NCBI GenBank assembly: GCA_002104935.1
Contig: MCGT01000001.1
Location: 1 to 64,000, forward strand
DNA length: 64,000 bases
Direction: 5' to 3'
From: Hesseltinella vesiculosa
Taxonomy: Eukaryota; Mucoromycota; Mucoromycetes; Mucorales; Cunninghamellaceae
Shown: positions 11 to 41,064 of the stretch, piece by piece
Layout: each line of letters starts with the position of its first letter
Position numbering within the stretch: the first letter of the stretch is position 1
Notes under the pieces: model-generated
Database searches by the model: none
What the model was told of the DNA's origin: nothing
What the model saw: the letters and a program-made list of their open reading frames with translations, nothing else
Translations under genes and position numbers: made by a program

Positions 11-3000
11 ATGTCCCAAACCATTCTACAACAAAGAGCCTATTTGGAGGGTCTAAAACGGCGCAAAATTGAAAGAGAGGAAGAACAAGAGCGACAAGGT
101 GAGATCTTGCTCCAGAACAAGGACAGCTAACAGAATGCTTTGTTTCAATACATTCAGGCAGAACACCCTGTGCCAGATGCGGAAGGACAGATCATGTGGA
201 TGGTCCGTTCCCGGCTCTGCCCATTCAACAGTAAGTTGACATGACAAGCATTGGTCAAACGAAATATCTGACTGGTTTTTTTTTTTTTTGCTGCTAGGAC
301 ATTATGGGGCACCAACCCAAGCAGTTGTGAGACAGCAGAACAGACAAGGGAGAAGAGCAGGCCAACGGCAATTGGACGCCGCCCGGGCCAATCCCAACGT
401 TCCCCGATGCTCACACTGCATTCTCCCGGACGGAAGCAATGATGCGTGCGAGCACCACGGAAATGCTGCCAGCCACCTCTGCCATGCCCATAAAACCAAT
501 GTGGACGATGTTCTGGGCAACATCATTGGTCCAAACCACACCCCTTTTGTCCGTCGCTGTTCTCTGAAGCATGCCCTGCGATGCTATGGCCATTCCAGAC
601 GGCAGCGAATGCGTGCCAAAGCAAATGTGATGCAAGAAGTGAACGTCGTTGTCGACCATGTGCGGGATCTGTCGATCAAAGCCATGCTTTTTACCCAACA
701 TCATGCTCTGACACTGTTGGAAGGTTCTGAGCCAATCCCTCTCCATTTTAGCTCGCAAGATTACATTTATGGCGTTATGCAGTTGCTGCTTGGTGGTCAC
801 ATCACGAATCAAAATCCGAACCTCCCCCAAGACACAGAATCGATTTTTCACGCATATGTCCAATCATTCGAAACCGCGGATCTCCCAACAGTTCAACCGT
901 TACCTGGCTATTCCCAAACATACGCTCATATGGCCAAGACCCTAGCCACAGCGGTCAAGAATGGCCTGGCTGAATCATTTGAACCTCGCTGCCGAACCTT
1001 CTTGGCGTTCAAACTCCGATCTTTGATTCCAGCCAATGTAAGTTGCGAGGGAAAAGAAGACAGGAACTAAACAACTCTCCATCTTTGCCTCTTAACAGGA
1101 AAAGCCAACTAAAAAATCATTGAAGAAATTGGTGTCATTTGCCTACGACACTCTCTGCGGGACTGACAGCGAACCAGCAACTCCTACGTATGCACATGCT
1201 TCCTGGCAAGATGCTGTGGCGTCAGTGATTTCCAATGTGACCCTAGGGCCGACGCCTGTGAATTTGGAAAATCTAACAGCCAAGTTTAACTTATACTTGC
1301 CCGTCGTGTATGGATTCCTTGGTAAGGGCGTAAAAAGAGGCTCAATTGTGTCAAAGGAAATAGGACTCATCTCTTCCTCCTCCAAAAAATAAAAATAGCT
1401 GAAATGGAAGCCTACAATAATGCAGCCACTGGTGTAGTGAGCGAAGAAACAATCGTCGACTATGCTGACAACAAGAGCTGCTGGGAGCTGCTTACGCGTT
1501 TGGACCAATTCAATGATCTGGGCCGCCGGCAGCAAAACCGCCTTGTCCGTGCGTTTTTCAAAATGGTCAACCATCCGACGATGCCTGTCAGATTTGGCCC
1601 AAAGCTTGGCGATTATCTTCGCAGTGGAATGACAACATTGGTAACAAGAACCCGTGAACAACTCTCGTTGTCACGCCAATTCCTGAATGGACGGTATATG
1701 ATCGACACGTCAGTATGCTTCAGAACGACAACAGCTTCAACAATGCATGTCACAAAAATGTATACCCTGCTGCCTGCTCTTCGATTCACGCGCAAGTTTG
1801 TGACTCTGGATGCCCAGTGTCTGGCCCGGATTTTCGACCAAGCAGGTGCACAACCTCGATACGAAGATTATTTGTTCGTCGGCAATCCTGTGGCAATGGA
1901 CGGCCCTAACGACGAACCATCCAGACGAGGACGACCCAGACAGCCGGTTCTTTCTGACTATCAAAAGATCAAGAAGAAGTTCCTGGTATTTTGGAGTTCG
2001 TTGGATTTCAAAAAGGTCCGACTGGAGCAGTGGTAAGCTTGGGCAGGTGAATAGAAAAAAAAAAAGCGGGCATCGTGGTAATCTTTTTGTTTCCCTAGCC
2101 GAGAATCTCTGGGGTCGTATGATGTGGATGTGCCCCCTGAAGGGAACAAAATAGCATTCAGGAACCTTGTACGAACCGATGGCCATACCCTGGAATTCCT
2201 GTGCGAACGGAAAAGCCGAGAACGCCTGCCTGATCTCGTCATGAGTGACTTGGATGACAACGACATGGTGGAATTTTGGTCCTATGGTGTTGACCCAGGG
2301 CACACGGTGCCCTTCACAGCAGTGGATTCCGAAAAAAATTGCCTTCGATTCACAAACAACGAATTTTACGCCAAATCCGGGTATAAAAAACGTCGATACC
2401 ACCGCCAGCTGTCAACCACCGAGTCTGGGATGAACATTGCACTCAACAGCCTGCCAACGAAAAAAACGGTGTCATCGACCAGATGGACATCGTATTGCCA
2501 GTCGCTGTGCGAGACCCTGCCTGTGCTTTACCAATTTTATGGCTCATCCTTTACCAATGCGCGCTTTTTGGCCTATGTCTCTAAGCAAAAAGTCCTGGAT
2601 GAGATGGTGAACATCTTTGCGTTTGGTGGCAAAAAATATAAAGAACATGACGTACTGTAAGTATGAATGGTAAAAAAGAGAGAGGGGGGGGATAACGGAG
2701 ATTGACGTCAATCTTTATTTTTTTATTCAGTAAAAAAATACCCTTTTCAAGAATACCCCTGGTCATGATGGGCTCTGGTGTGTTCGGCTTCACACTGAAG
2801 GGGAAAAAAACGCGCATGTCAATTATGCCAAAACTCAAGCAAGCCGAGTTGGAAGGACGGCTGCTTGTCTGCGTGGTCAATGAAAGCTTTACAAGTCAAG
2901 TAAGACAGAACTGGGGTGGCGGGAAGAATAGCTGCTCATAACAAGTGTCTTGGTTTTAGGTATGCTGTGCCTGCCACACGCAATCTCTGTCGCTTGCGCG

Positions 3001-3178
3001 AGTTCTTGACCCTTTGACCGATTCCGCGGTTTCCCTCTGGTCTGTAAAGACATGCTACATTTGCCAACGCCATTGGAACCGGGACAAGTCGGCAGCCAAA
3101 AACATTCTGCACCTGGGATATTTGGAACAAGAGAAGCAACCTCGTCCCGAAGTTTTCACCAAGTCAATGAACCATTGA
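11..3178 (+). CDS. Fanzor-type (TnpB-related) RuvC endonuclease, copy 1, multi-exon
   Basis: Predicted eukaryotic relative of IS200/IS605 TnpB. The family is known for RNA-guided DNA cleavage; activity here is inferred. Exons follow GT-AG introns near 232-298, 1039-1098, 1322-1398, 2034-2099, 2659-2729 and 2900-2959. An N-terminal Cys/His cluster (CSHC...CEHH...CHAH, about 410-510) is followed by a long helical region. The RuvC parts are in order: RuvC-I GVDPGHT (Asp codon 2292), RuvC-II VVNESFTSQ (Glu codon 2882), a zinc ribbon CCAC...CYIC, then RuvC-III WNRDKSAAKNI (Asp codon 3083), which matches the TnpB/Fanzor consensus. No in-frame stop was found from the exon at 133 onward once introns are removed. 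The 5' end is unsure: the ATG at 11 joins exon 133-231 only with a phase mismatch, so the true first exon may lie outside the window. It is homologous to the gene at 37077-40419 but very divergent. Confidence 0.8.
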
Positions 3179-3984: not shown

Positions 3985-5445
3985 GAGTGCCGGATCCACC
4001 CTTGGCAATCGCTTGGCGTCACGGTAAGCGCAGCCTCACGGATTCTGGGCGCCAGAGAGTCTTGATCATCCAAGGGAGATCTGCGCACACCTGCCTTGAT
4101 TTTGGCCCAACATTCCTCAATCCCATTGAGGAATGGGCTGTAGGGTGGCAAAAACATTGGCTTAAAGCCACGGTTCTTGATCACTGCCTTGACGCTGTCA
4201 CCGGTGTGGATTCTACAGTTGTCCATAATGATATACCTTCCACTTATACCATCATTTTCCAACTTAAGACATCATCGACGAATGCCAGGAAGTCTTCGGT
4301 TCTTGTCCCAGCTTTTGCCCTCATTTTTTTTCCATTCTTGTCAGAGGTCATAGTCGTTGTTGGCTTACGCAAAGTCAGATTGATAATACCAAGCTCGCAA
4401 ATGGCTCCAAGGATGGTGATATTTGGTCCTTTTGATGCTGGCACTTTCACCTTGGGTGTCTTCCCACGAGTAGCCCAACCAAAACCACGGCGGAGATGAA
4501 GGTTGAAACCGGCTTCATCCAAAAAGACACAGCTGCTGAGGAAGTTAAAATCTGGGAGTGCATTCCATTCCAAAATTTTTTCACGACGAAGCTGCCTGGT
4601 TCTTGGGGAATTTCTTGCATCAGAGATAATTTGTACCTTTTTGAGTGTCAGCATGCAGTGTGAGCGCAAATGATTCCGTAAACCAGATGCAGAGATTGTC
4701 ATAGGGGTAAATTGCTCTTCCAAAGCAAATTTCGCTTCAGCCAAAGTATGTGTAGGGTCATCATCAAAAAACGCTACAAGAAAATCTGTGTGTTCCTGAA
4801 ATAGCTTTCTATTTCCACCATTTTTGTGCTTCACACCAGGTATAGGCATGCGCTGTTGCTCATCTTTCCAAAACAGGGCCATGTATCCTTGTGCGGTGCG
4901 CTCCTTGATCCCAACGACTCTACCTGCTCCTGCAGCCGTGTAACCTAAAACATAATGAAACGGGCAAAAAAAAAAAAAAGCAGTAATAAAAATCAGTTCA
5001 TACCATTCACATCAAATAATAATTGCTTACCTTTGTTAGCCACGATATCTATCAGTTCTTCTACTTGAGCAGCAGTATACACACGGTATGCGCCGCGTTT
5101 TGCAGTGAGCGGTTCCTTTTTTGGTAAGACGACATCCGAGGGACCATCCAAATCCATTGGTGCGATTTGGCGCTTGTATAAAGCTTGATATGTTTTAAAT
5201 GTTATCAATTGACCGCGTCCAAGCTCCAGACTATCATCACCTGGCCTGAATTCCATTGCTACTTGCAGTTGACCAGCTGGTGCCGAATGCTTGCTTTTGG
5301 TTTGACGGCAGCCATCAAACGTTTGATAGGTGCCCGCGAGTAAGCTAAGTTCATCTTCCATTGACAAACTTGAGGCAGTTTCTATGGTTTCGGAGTCGCT
5401 GATCTCGTCTGTCGAACGGATATTCCAAATATCGTTTGTTGCCAT
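3960..5445 (-). pseudogene. DDE transposase (DDE_3/IS630-Tc1 type), one intron, one frameshift
   Basis: The start ATG is at 5445. A GT-AG intron (4945-5030) splits a helix-turn-helix region, with the exon junction reading VANK|GYTAAGAGRVVGIKE. The catalytic core has D1 in VFLDEAGFN, D2 in IIMDNCRIHTGD and the third acidic residue in PPYSPFLNGIEECW. This is the classic IS630/Tc1-mariner DDE arrangement used for cut-and-paste transposition. The frame changes between FVDDVLS and NDGISGRYIIMDNC near 4244-4262, so the open frame is broken between D1 and D2. No plausible intron covers the change, so a one- or two-base indel (or a sequence error) is likely. The N-terminal 150 residues are acidic and unrecognised. 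Confidence 0.85.
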
Positions 5446-36833: not shown

Positions 36834-36958
36834 TTGACTTCCCTTTTCCCCCAGCTAAAAAATTTACTAAAAAGAGCATGAGCCATCTACACTTCGGAGT
36901 TACAAATGACAGACAAGCAATCCACTATGGAAAAAAAGAAAACTCCGTTACCAATCAG

Positions 36959-37017
36959 AACGTGTGTTAAGTGTTGGCTAAAAGCACCAGTTACCGGATA
37001 AAAGCATTAAACACGTT
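36959..37017 (-). ncRNA. Inverted repeat 3' of Fanzor copy 2; candidate guide-RNA/3'-UTR structure
   Basis: AACGTGTGTTAA (36959-36970) and TTAAACACGTT (37007-37017) can form an 11-bp stem with one bulge around a 36-nt loop. TnpB and Fanzor guide RNAs are typically encoded at or past the nuclease gene's 3' end, so position and structure fit. Nothing in the sequence proves transcription. It may equally be a 3'-UTR stem. Confidence 0.3.
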
Positions 37018-37076
37018 CTTGCCAGAGCAGACGGTAACCCCTTTTGCAGGGTTGCTTTGGTGAATAAATATGAAAA

Positions 37077-40000
37077 CTAAGCGGTAGGAGAGGTTGGAGG
37101 GCGTCGGCGTGGGCAAAAGGCCAGGGGGCGTTGCTTGTGTTGGAAAAAGTGTTGACCAATGGACACCATATTGCAGGCCGCCATGACATCCCGGTCAAAG
37201 ATGACCACACAGGAGCTGCAGCGCAGAAGTCCATAAATCTTGCCACCATTCACGACTGGGTTTTTGGTTGGGCCATGGCAGATAGAGCAGAGCTGCATTG
37301 AAGAAAAAGAATGAGCCACCTCGTTGCTGACATGCTTTTTTTTTTTTACCCACCTTGCTTGTTTTGAACTCATTCAGTGAGATAACAGCAAGCTTGCCCT
37401 GTCGTTGTCGGTTTTCCAATTGGTCAAACACCAGGGAAGACGAGCCAGGAAGTTGCTTTTTGAGCGGGGCGGCGACCTTCCGGCCCTTGAGGCCATCACC
37501 AAAGAGTATTAATGGAACTCTTTCGCTGGGAAACTTTGTCACACCGTGACGAATGCGTGTGTTTGGCTTCATTTGCGGTGCAGGTCTACAATGGAAAAAT
37601 AAGCCCACCTGGACCTCCTGAATACTACGACAACTTGCCTCTTTTCTTCCATTTCATTGATCAGATCAATGCGGTGGTCACGGTCGAGGTCGCGTTGGGT
37701 GCGCATGGTATGTAATGTTGCTTCCCATAGATCCATCGTCCCAGGTAGCATCGAGCCAGCAGAGTATTTTAACAGATTTTCGGTCTTCACGATAGAAACA
37801 TCCAGCGCGGCAAGGTGTTCCACCATCGCCTTCTTGGCCATGCTGATCTTGAAGGCCTTTTTCTTCCGAGCTTTCTTCTGACGCTTGCGCCGATTGCGGT
37901 GGGTACGTTTGCGGTGGCCACGCACATTGCGCTGGGACTTGACATACTTCTTGGACAGTCCAGCAAGAACACTGGCAACGTATGCGACACCCCGCTGGCG
38001 CCCTCTGTAAGCATTGAAGCGGTCGATGGAATGCTGAAGGCCGTAAAAGTCGAAGAAGAGTGGGAGACGATCGAGCAGGTATTGGATTCGGATGTCATAT
38101 TCGGAGGCGCTGGTGCTTCGGTGGGAAGGGATGGCAGCCTCCAGCTGATGGAACGGTAATTGCTGACCTCGGAAAGAGTATGTCGTGGAAACCTTGCGTC
38201 GTTCCAATTGTTGGATTCGTCGCTGCGTTCCACATTGCGAGCGGTATTCCTTTGCTGATACCTTGATGACTCGGTAAGGCAGATGGTGAGACTGGGGGAT
38301 CGGGGTGGTAGGATCGGCATCGTCAATCATAGGCATAGAGAGATTTCCTTGTTCCATATCAGTGCTGCCAGTGGCGTTGTCAAAGTCCTGATGTTGATGT
38401 GCAGGCTGAGCAGTACGAATAGGACATGGGGTGTCGATAGCCATTTGTTCTTCGTCATTATCGTTATCGGGTTCACCTTCACCTGCAGAGTCTTCGTCAT
38501 CCCGGGTTTCAGGGAGCATAGAAAGTGGATAAGGGGTGCCATAGCTTCCGGTGACGATGGCACGGCGGCCTGGATCGACGGCGACCATGTCGAAGCGATC
38601 GACCAGTTCGGTATCCCAGTGGTCCAGGCTGGGCAGCTTCATCGTTGGGCGATGCGTGGTTGGCAAACGAATAAATTCAAAGCAGCACGAAACGCCATCA
38701 CACCAAATGTGGCAAGCAAACAGTGGACGGTTGTATAGTATACCCTCAAGCATGTCCTGGACACTAGGTGAGAAGAACAAGAAAAAAGTTGGAAGTTGTT
38801 TTTTTTTTTTTTTTTGGTGTCTGCAAAACTTGCCTCCCGTACCCAGGGCCGCCAAAGTTGAACTTCTCCATGTGGAACACCTTGAAAAACATGGGCAAGG
38901 CACGGATGAATGCGGCGTCGGGTTCACCAGCCATATCATTGTTGCCTGCTTCACCACCAGCGGTAGCCACAGCGTGACCAGGAGCATCGCATTCGGCTAG
39001 GTATTTGATCGTGTCGGGTAGGATGGAGATGAATCGGCGTCCAAAGTGGGGCTCAGGAAGGATGGTAAGCTTTGGGCATTTTTTGGGGTTGGCATTGGGC
39101 TGGGACTTGTACTGCTCGTATTGCTTGTTGATGTTGGTGTAGACAAGCAAGGCACTGCTAGGATTTCGGGACAGAGTTGTTGATGTCAATTTACCAACGT
39201 AGTGGGGTTTCAAGGCCAGTGTTTTCGCCTTCACATCGGCAATCGCCGCTTCTTCGGCAGACACGCCAGGGACACTGTTTGTGGCCGATCCAGATGTGAC
39301 CCCTGATTGATGGTGGGAGGGTCTTTCTGCGAAGTTTGTGTAGATGTCATCCACCTGCTGGTCAATATGAGGGATCTGAAAGAGACAAAAAAAAGTCAGA
39401 ACACATTCCCTTTTTTGGTACCGCCCTTTTAAAAAACTTACTTGGACATCCGTGATGGCAAAGGAGAATCGAATAAACTTCTTGACCTTTTTCTCAAAGT
39501 CGATCACCAAGCAATTGGAGTAAGCGGTGGCAAGCGTTGACAAACATGGCCCAAAAGTACCTCCATAGAATTTATGCGGGTGATGGAAGTGATGGCTGCG
39601 GTCATCAGCAGGAATGAGTAGGGCTGCATTGTCGAGCGGATCCATGCCGTGGTGGTCGTTGGGGTTGTACACGATGTTTGGGTGGTCGCGGACAAACTGG
39701 TTCCAGTGAGGCAGAAAGGTGGGAGGAAGGCTTCGCAGGATGTGAGCGTTGGTGATCCCCGGTCGCCGCGGGTTGCGGGGATAGATGAGCTGCGAGATGG
39801 ACAGGAGACCGTTCTGGCTGATCATGATGCTTTTAAAGTCAGACGGGTGAGTGAGAGCGAAATGGTTGATAAACAATTGGAGGCGGAAAAGGATGTTCTT
39901 GTTGCAGGCGCTGGTCGATTCTATGTTGCGCTTCAAAGCGAGCTTGAACGGTTGCCGGACGGCATCTTCAAAGCTTTTTTTTATCGTGTAGCGCTCACCA

Positions 40001-40419
40001 CCTGGCATCATTTCGTTGATGTAATCCTTCTTGTTCATGCGATGGTAAGGACAGAGGCGGCTGGCAGACGAACAGTGTCCCATTTGGCCGCATGTGGCAC
40101 ACGGTCCCACAGCATCAGGATTTCGCTCATCTTCTTGGCGCAGCCGTCTCCCCTCGGCGCGATCGTTTTGTTCCTGTTGTTGGGCACGTCGTTGTGGCGT
40201 GGGCCCAGTTTCCCGTCCTACGAAGATGGGTAAAGAAAAAGACATGATGGAAGTGATGGATGACTTACTTTGACGATAGACTTTTGCTTGTGACCAAACA
40301 GTGTAGAATTGTTCGGTGGTCATCCAAGCTTGGCCCAACTGATCAGGCAACGCCCGGCGGAAATCTTCTTCAGGGATGTGGCACAGAGTTACGTAGACGG
40401 ATTGAAGAAGCGATTGCAT
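37077..40419 (-). CDS. Fanzor-type (TnpB-related) RuvC endonuclease, copy 2, six exons
   Basis: Predicted eukaryotic TnpB-like nuclease, apparently intact. Introns: 40218-40268; about 39376-39441; 38764-38833 (GC-AG donor AG|GCAAGT); about 37571-37638; 37293-37353. An N-terminal Cys cluster (CATCGQMGHC...CPYH) leads to a long helical region. RuvC-I is MVAVDPGRR (Asp codon 38574-38576). It is followed by an acidic insert (DEDSAGEGEPDNDNDEE) and a basic, NLS-like stretch (KRTHRNRRKRQKKARKKK). RuvC-II is ISLNEFKTSK (Glu codon 37369-37371). The zinc ribbon is CSIC...CSSC, then RuvC-III FDRDVMAACNM (Asp codon 37188-37190). The FY...RF.AY block before RuvC-II aligns with the gene at the window start, but overall similarity is low. 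It is divergent from TRS65. RNA-guided cleavage is known for the family and inferred here. Confidence 0.85.
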
Positions 40420-41064
40420 CAGGGAAAGATAGAAATTGAGCAGAAATAAAGAAAAAGATAGAAGAGCCTAGATAAACAAACAAACAAAAAGAATCGCGTG
40501 TTGCGGAAGATCAAACCAATGTCATGCCAGTGAGCATGACCGCCAATCACATCCTTAGCCCTTTTTTTACTACGTACCTTTCTTTTTGAAATATAAAATG
40601 AAGTAGCGTACCATCAATGATAAAGGTAGCACTCTTTGCCTATCTCTATTGCTCATTTTACTGTGCTTCTTAAATAAAAACTTAACACTGCCTGGCAAAC
40701 CAAACCACGAAAAAAAAAAATTCAGGCCCCAGAGTCATCCTCAGTTAAACAAAAATGCTCCAGATTGGAGAAGTTGCGACTATCCATATCATTCTGTCTA
40801 TTTCACGCATTCCTCTCCCTATGCCTTACCATGCTTGGTCTATAAATCCAAGGTGGTAAAAATAACATGCTTTGCAGAAAGATGCGACAAATTCTTTTCT
40901 GCAAGCGGATCATGTTAGTGCGCTTAGTAGCGCATATGCAGCTGGCTATTTGATTGGTTGCGCTGTTTTTTTCTTCTCAAATTTTCCATAGTGAATCATT
41001 TCGCCAGTCGTGCCTTATTTTTTGTCTCTCTCTTTCTTTTTTTTTTTTTGCAGCGTATTGGCAC
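40420..41064. promoter_or_regulatory. Divergent region between Fanzor copy 2 and TRS65
   Basis: About 645 bp between two start codons. It holds a CAAA microsatellite (about 40471-40489) and a T11 run before 41050. No reading frame looks coding. Confidence 0.4.

Follow-up and report, generated by a model that had tools for sequence, protein, structure and literature searches.

The question raised by this locus is whether positions 37077-40419 of the window, the stretch of 64,000 nucleotides of Hesseltinella vesiculosa DNA that was analysed, hold an intact gene for Fanzor, an RNA-guided nuclease that cuts DNA, and to what kind of element such a gene belongs. The span from stop codon to ATG is exactly 37077-40419 on the minus strand, as the earlier note had placed it, and the translation of 40419-37077 in six exons stays open and encodes 1013 aa (Table 1). 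Copies of the locus were sought genome-wide, and the family counts at least 23 in the 27-Mb genome, a lower bound. Their segments are 78-99% identical in protein sequence. C26 is a 24th copy with an internal deletion, C23x and C85x are remnants, and C1e (locus L031) is a 50% relative whose segments show 40-53% protein identity.

Table 1 Positions in the window of the element, its predicted exons and its ends
Feature	Position	Strand	Basis
Whole element, 4071 bp between inverted ends (4.07 kb)	36923..40993	-	copy comparison and terminal repeats
Left copy of the 4-bp target duplication GATT	40994..40997	-
Left terminal inverted repeat, CACTATGGAAAA	40982..40993	-
Exon 1	40269..40419	-	spliced reading
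Exon 2, with the N-terminal Cys/His motif	39442..40217	-	spliced reading; motif read by eye here
Exon 3, GC donor at its end	38834..39375	-	spliced reading, copy comparison
Exon 4, with CDG motif, RuvC-I DPG, acidic insert and basic helical segment; GC donor at its end	37639..38763	-
Exon 5, with GDG motif and NEFKTSK (RuvC-II glutamate)	37354..37585	-
Exon 6, with C4 zinc ribbon and RuvC-III DRD; PF07282	37077..37292	-
Candidate ωRNA (omega RNA) guide scaffold region, model R1	36923..37062	-	noncoding conservation
Right terminal inverted repeat, TTTTCCATAGTG in gene orientation	36923..36934	-
Right copy of the 4-bp target duplication GATT	36919..36922	-

The spliced reading and its Fanzor motifs

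We infer from the genomic sequence that the 1013-aa gene is spliced. The earlier note had found the splice phases open through six exons, and this stood with one correction, namely that introns 3 and 4 need GC donors (AG/GCAAGT, the slash marking the exon end), which gives GC-AG introns of 70 and 53 bp. A reading with only GT donors for these two introns shrinks intron 4 to 23 bp, is disfavoured by the copies and was rejected. At the same place in intron 3 the donor is AG/GT in 12 of 20 copies and AG/GC in the other 8, and the intron-4 donor is GC in 21/21 copies and GT (GTAAA) in C1e, where introns 3 and 4 seem to interrupt codons at the same phase, a judgement that for intron 3 comes from the frames only. 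This variation between GC and GT donors supports independently both splicing and selection on the gene. Exons 4, 5 and 6 measure 1125, 232 and 216 bp across the 20 copies compared, the exceptions being C1c and C23b (exon 4) and C25a (exon 6); exon lengths are thus nearly fixed, and introns 4 and 5 differ in length. Exons 4-6 are open in 18 of 20 copies (closed in C33b and C23b), and nine other copies could be read end to end, six of them open (C13, C6, C47, C1d, C1c and C10) and three with stops (C34, C25a and C78). The description of the gene as apparently intact was borne out by the open 1013-aa reading and by the catalytic motifs kept among the copies. Over the nuclease half of 19 copies, the broken C23b being set aside, mean dN was 0.042 and mean dS 0.156, a ratio of means of 0.27; dS measured from the 37077-40419 copy reaches 0.255 and that of the closest copies, C13 and C23a, is 0.014. 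The ratio of 0.27 indicates that the nuclease half stayed under constraint while the element was copied many times, and the dS of 0.014 that copies have also arisen recently.

DPG, NEFKTSK, CxxC/CxxC and DRD..AACN, all named in the earlier note, were found in the spliced reading. Motifs were counted in 20 RuvC halves (19 copies and C1e), setting aside the broken C23b, the internally deleted C26, and C12a, C46 and C1b. DPG, both CxxC and DRD are present in 20/20 and the RuvC-II glutamate in 19/20. Copy C47 (L022) carries Asp at this position (NDFKTSK) in an otherwise open reading frame. The glutamate is of the alternative type (EFKTSKLC), with six residues between it and the zinc finger, and the combination of DPG with a glutamate at that distance from the zinc finger is what the accessible text of PMC10711439 terms the "molecular fingerprints" of Fanzors. 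The search pattern in the same text permits gaps of 12-18 and 4-8 residues, and the zinc ribbon here, spaced CxxC-19-CxxC-4-D, exceeds the first by one residue. RuvC-I and RuvC-II are 381 residues apart compared with 120-160 or 125-275 in published search patterns, which are not definitions; the gap lies beyond them because it takes in a long helical segment, which includes a basic stretch, and an acidic insert. For the TDG motif expected in the WED domain of Fanzor1, the putative counterpart is CDG in the 1013-aa protein and SDG in C1e, and the genome's other Fanzor family has TDG.

PF07282 (TnpB/Cas12f zinc ribbon) was the sole Pfam family reaching E 1 in the 1013-aa protein, with E 2.7e-8 and 34.3 bits against a cut-off of 26.3. 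The PHROG 'transposase' family 506 matched at E 7.2e-6, NCBIfam TnpB families reached E 0.003-0.02, well short of their curated cut-offs, and the weak matches in the zinc-ribbon region comprised TnpB models as well as Cas12f2, the latter in one sequence of four. Among solved structures the best matches, weak and in the zinc-ribbon part, were mimivirus L79 and LaTranC, and a transposase appeared weakly as well; the mimivirus proteins are classed as Fanzor2 in the available part of PMC3627910. No chain named Fanzor occurred among the PDB matches up to E 10, and the N-terminal half gave nothing meaningful against solved structures (best E 0.34). The PF07282 match, the presence of at least 23 copies genome-wide and the dN/dS of 0.27 show that the gene is not a chance reading. 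The proposed Fanzor identity is supported by the catalytic fingerprint and the open frame over six exons. The gene is carried by a eukaryotic transposon with terminal repeats rather than by an IS607, and by this context the Fanzor is most likely of Fanzor1 type.

The exon-4 piece, modelled alone from two sequences, gave a poor model (mean pLDDT 51), its confident part being only the helical segment with the basic stretch (block pLDDT 69-87). The basic stretch, described as NLS-like in the earlier note, starts at residue 772 and may be an NLS; since it is largely kept in C1e and lies inside a predicted helix, binding to nucleic acid is as plausible a role. Between the 37077-40419 copy and C1e the acidic insert differs much.

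Searches for homologues elsewhere found none with the whole protein (7986 candidates) or with residues 85-310 (257 candidates), and a search with the RuvC-half profile found two proteins, both labelled Hesseltinella vesiculosa (Mucorales); absence elsewhere is not proven by this, because gene sets often omit repeats and the search needs shared words. One of these relatives, P0001, shows 95% identity with C1e across 320 residues and is therefore a close relative and not the same gene copy. Within the genome, the RuvC-half profile matched the other Fanzor family with a probability of 96.9 over 122 columns at the C-terminal end, the N-terminal halves of the 1013-aa protein and of that family are alike too (E 4.5e-6), and a plain alignment that starts at the DG motif and covers the rest of the RuvC half gives 25% identity for the L041 Fanzor. 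The L041, L034 and L032 families share DPG, the zinc ribbon and the N-terminal Cys/His motif. The earlier note had taken this N-terminal Cys cluster as a possible mark of an uncharacterised lineage, a suggestion that was not supported, since the motif C-x2-C-x(n)-H-x7-CP was found in 8/10 scanned loci of the genome's other Fanzor families (10 of 12 10-kb loci, L035 and L038 left out).

The genome contains 46 PF07282 matches, with several Fanzor families besides that of the 37077-40419 gene; one Fanzor, at C1:1367676, is 2.6 kb from a MULE domain (C1:1370485). A Fanzor of a different type, with VDPG, lies at 240-3169 (plus strand) of the window, resembles the L041 and L034 proteins and is probably what the earlier note counted as copy 1. 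By eye its first zinc-ribbon cysteines look lost and its frames broken, so it seems decayed. About 1 kb from it, at 4247-5011 (minus strand), is a DDE_3 transposase domain (E 7.7e-7) that could be a mariner-type partner.

Ends and insertion sites of the copies

The element around the gene, its copies, their target preference and the conserved noncoding core at the 3' side go beyond what the earlier note described. On the right side similarity among copies stops at about 36920 in nearly all of them, and on the left it stops at or inside 40993, bar short run-ons through A-rich or flanking bases and the C25a alignment, which runs on leftward some 55 bp past 40993. A Pfam scan of the Fanzor protein and of ten further reading frames of the element, shorter frames lying outside it, detected no transposase or recombinase domain. 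The termini, CACTATGG...CCATAGTG, fit CACTA. Transposons of the CACTA/EnSpm group have CACTA termini and a 3-bp target duplication; the duplications here are of 4, 8, 10, 11 and 12 bp, not 3, so this filing was dropped. As to what moves the element, its CACTA-like termini hint at a transposase that acts in trans. A ACCAATCA box lies just inside both ends (36923-36960 and 40945-40993), and the right end of C1e retains a CCAATCA. The genome has seven matches to CACTA-type transposases (PF02992), several of them near contig ends, which could supply a transposase for CACTA-like ends.

The left-end pattern had 19 matches, 17 in family copies and two at sites with 3 mismatches (C2 and C16), with one in the reversed control, and the right-end pattern had 23, in 20 copies and in C1e, C23x and C85x. 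The exact 12-mer ends gave 38 matches, ten of them outside the family, with 22 in the control. A search of the end patterns for an autonomous partner thus yielded family copies, C1e, remnants and a few single sites that may yet include one; no ghost copies of the family were recognised among these matches.

All 23 copies for which both flanks are available share one final G at the right end, and GA follows in 22 of them (GG in C78), or in 25/26 with C26, C23x and C85x added; GA makes up 6.4% of the dinucleotides in the window, and C1e has CA. The left end is ragged: CACTAT is exact in 9/23 copies, replaced by other letters in 8/23 and lost further in 6/23. Flank pairs and left ends were counted in these 23 copies, leaving out C26, C1e, C23x and C85x. 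Target duplications are convincing in 7/23 copies, all beginning with GA, and 16/23 show none that is convincing. Those of 4 bp are GATT in the 37077-40419 copy, GAAG in C23a and GAAT in C56a, and those of 8, 10, 11 and 12 bp belong to C6, C1c, C1d and C33b, all with eroded left ends. Matching flank bases total 88 in the true pairs; in 5000 re-pairings this total averaged 56 and never exceeded 81. Four true pairs score at least 7, a score that three at most reach after re-pairing. A shared flank of at least 4 bp occurs in 9/23 copies against 3.7 by re-pairing, two of them (C56b and C25a) away from the junction, so that some of the 4-bp duplications may be due to chance. Of 17 copies with an outer left end, 11 have a GA placed exactly 10 bp ahead of GGAAAA; the base before this GA is T or C in 11/11, and also in C33b and C6, a pyrimidine rule noticed post hoc. 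The remnant at L086 (C85:260221) matches just the outermost 87 bp or so of the right end, with GATT next to it, as an extreme 5' truncation would leave.

Conservation of the 3' noncoding segment

Between the stop codon and the right end, comparison with C1e showed a 60-column core with 46/60 identical positions, a middle stretch with 17/46 and the last 33 columns with 27/33. The core begins about 20 nt past the stop codon, at a distance of some 75-135 nt inward of the right end. Its 46/60 is below the best 60-nt coding window against C1e (47), yet above silent sites, third codon positions being identical at 172/507 (34%). The 37077-40419 copy is identical to C10 over 140 nt, although their dS is 0.17; such identity in some copies could reflect gene conversion. 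A covariance model of the segment, run on 27 sources, matched the window, the family loci L029, L030 and L043, and C1e, C23x and C85x, with every other match at E 1.5 or above, and gave a weak match (E 5) at the element's left end.

The folding energy of the segment was no better than that of shuffles (z -0.64). A 9-bp helix (columns 46-54 with 103-111) was considered and rejected, two of its pairs being broken in 8 and 9 of 16 sequence types and three more in one type each. In the structure that we named, one pair changes on both sides, no better than in shuffles; the RNAalifold structure has four covarying pairs, each in a single row. No known RNA family reached its gathering threshold in the window. 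With an ordinary fold and thin covariation, the proposal of a guide RNA rests on sequence conservation, by which the 140 nt before the right end are a probable ωRNA guide scaffold. In SPu-1, according to the available text of PMC10432273, an ωRNA segment lies between the stop codon and the right repeat, and a conserved CA with the TA duplication makes up the CATA TAM. By analogy, the predicted TAM here should lie within 5'-YGANN.

Possible modes of spread and comparison with known systems

We consider it likely that this is a mobile element with a Fanzor as its only recognised gene, in which the 3' segment serves as guide scaffold and the flank as guide, directed at the element's own empty site. 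The spliced mRNA would be translated into the 1013-aa RuvC nuclease. The noncoding segment that extends from the 3' side of the gene into the right end would form the scaffold, and the host DNA just past that end would supply the guide sequence; with a guide taken from the right flank, a copy would be aimed at the site of its own insertion whenever that site is empty. Cleavage of the empty site could then be followed by repair from another copy, which would restore or spread the element. A one-ended form of copying, in which the Fanzor complex fixes the right end and the YGANN target and cuts, and repair copies leftward with an imprecise finish, is rather unlikely; if true, it would explain the constant right ends, the ragged left ends and the longer duplications where the left end is lost.

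The protein may be a Fanzor and the conserved 3' segment nevertheless a transposase-binding end, with the guide made elsewhere or not at all. We regard this as unlikely, if a little less so than the other alternatives. Conservation in the terminal 33 columns equals or exceeds that of the inner core, the CCAATCA box stands inside both ends as expected of a protein-binding end, and the RNA fold is not significant; against this, the core is split off from the right end by the poorly conserved middle stretch, and the left end gives only the weak model match. It is likewise doubtful, to about the degree of one-ended copying, that the nuclease itself acts as a transposase-like or homing enzyme without a separate transposase. 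The lack of a transposase domain within the element would fit, as would end patterns that match Fanzor copies, C1e, remnants and single sites, and left ends that are ragged when right ends are constant. Paired inverted ends and short target duplications are, however, the usual products of DDE transposases, and the genome contains transposases of CACTA type (the seven matches above) and MULE type (21 matches).

That the nuclease is an unused passenger, open only through recent copying, might be read from the stops in three of nine other copies and from the Asp of C47; the dN/dS of 0.27, measured on 19 copies that lie up to 0.255 in dS from the 37077-40419 copy, together with kept exon lengths and varying introns, makes this highly improbable. 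Least credible by far is another RuvC family, whether bacterial TnpB contamination or a Cas12-like protein: it could account for the weak zinc-ribbon matches to TnpB models and to Cas12f2 (the latter in one sequence of four), but not for the introns, the copies on many large contigs or the DPG with the alternative glutamate. Under the favoured reading of a guide-directed Fanzor element, the family allows a direct test of how target site, TAM and guide RNA are connected: one genome holds at least 23 copies, many of them open, whose right ends are constant, and there are a target motif, a predicted TAM and a guide-RNA candidate of limited extent. The copies are also a useful record of insertion sites for a Fanzor element.

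Literature searches for Fanzor with Mucoromycota or with non-canonical splicing found nothing; subscription papers lay largely outside them, so an earlier description is possible. Fanzor with Mucorales led to PMC11423790, and by title nothing on Hesseltinella vesiculosa transposons concerned this family. In the same genome, the 3' RNA model R1 has no significant match in the L041, L034 and L032 loci searched. As far as the accessible text of PMC11423790 describes it, PpFz1 of Parasitella parasitica is a Mucorales Fanzor1 that also has an extra segment inside RuvC, an FRI of about 100 aa that binds cyclophilin; it is a precedent for an insert, to which the excess in the 381-residue gap may correspond. 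The Chlamydomonas elements CRe-1/2/3, in the available part of PMC3627910, are likewise multi-exon Fanzors with 5'-truncated copies and variable duplications (one-ended transposition), and they carry Helitron ends. SPu-1/SpuFz1, in what is accessible of PMC10432273 and PMC3627910, also places a Fanzor between inverted repeats, with conserved bases on the left, an RNA segment from the stop codon to the right repeat and no transposase found; SpuFz1 has 633 aa in one reading frame, a putative TA duplication and the CATA TAM, in contrast to the 1013 aa, six exons and YGANN target found here. The Fanzor1 elements of Mucor, Rhizopus and Phycomyces (MCi, ROr and PBl), as given in the main text of PMC3627910, are fungal as well, several of them without their own transposase, and MCi-2 resembles the present element in that its copies hardly differ in the 3' part, vary in their 5' regions and have duplications, there of 11-12 bp, with a fixed pattern. 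Compared by description, their ends are MuDR-like (9 bp) with MCi-2 and MCi-5 unclassified, against CACTATGG inverted repeats and GA-initial duplications of 4-12 bp here, and the words CACTA and EnSpm are absent from that main text. The element looks like a new Fanzor family of a known kind.
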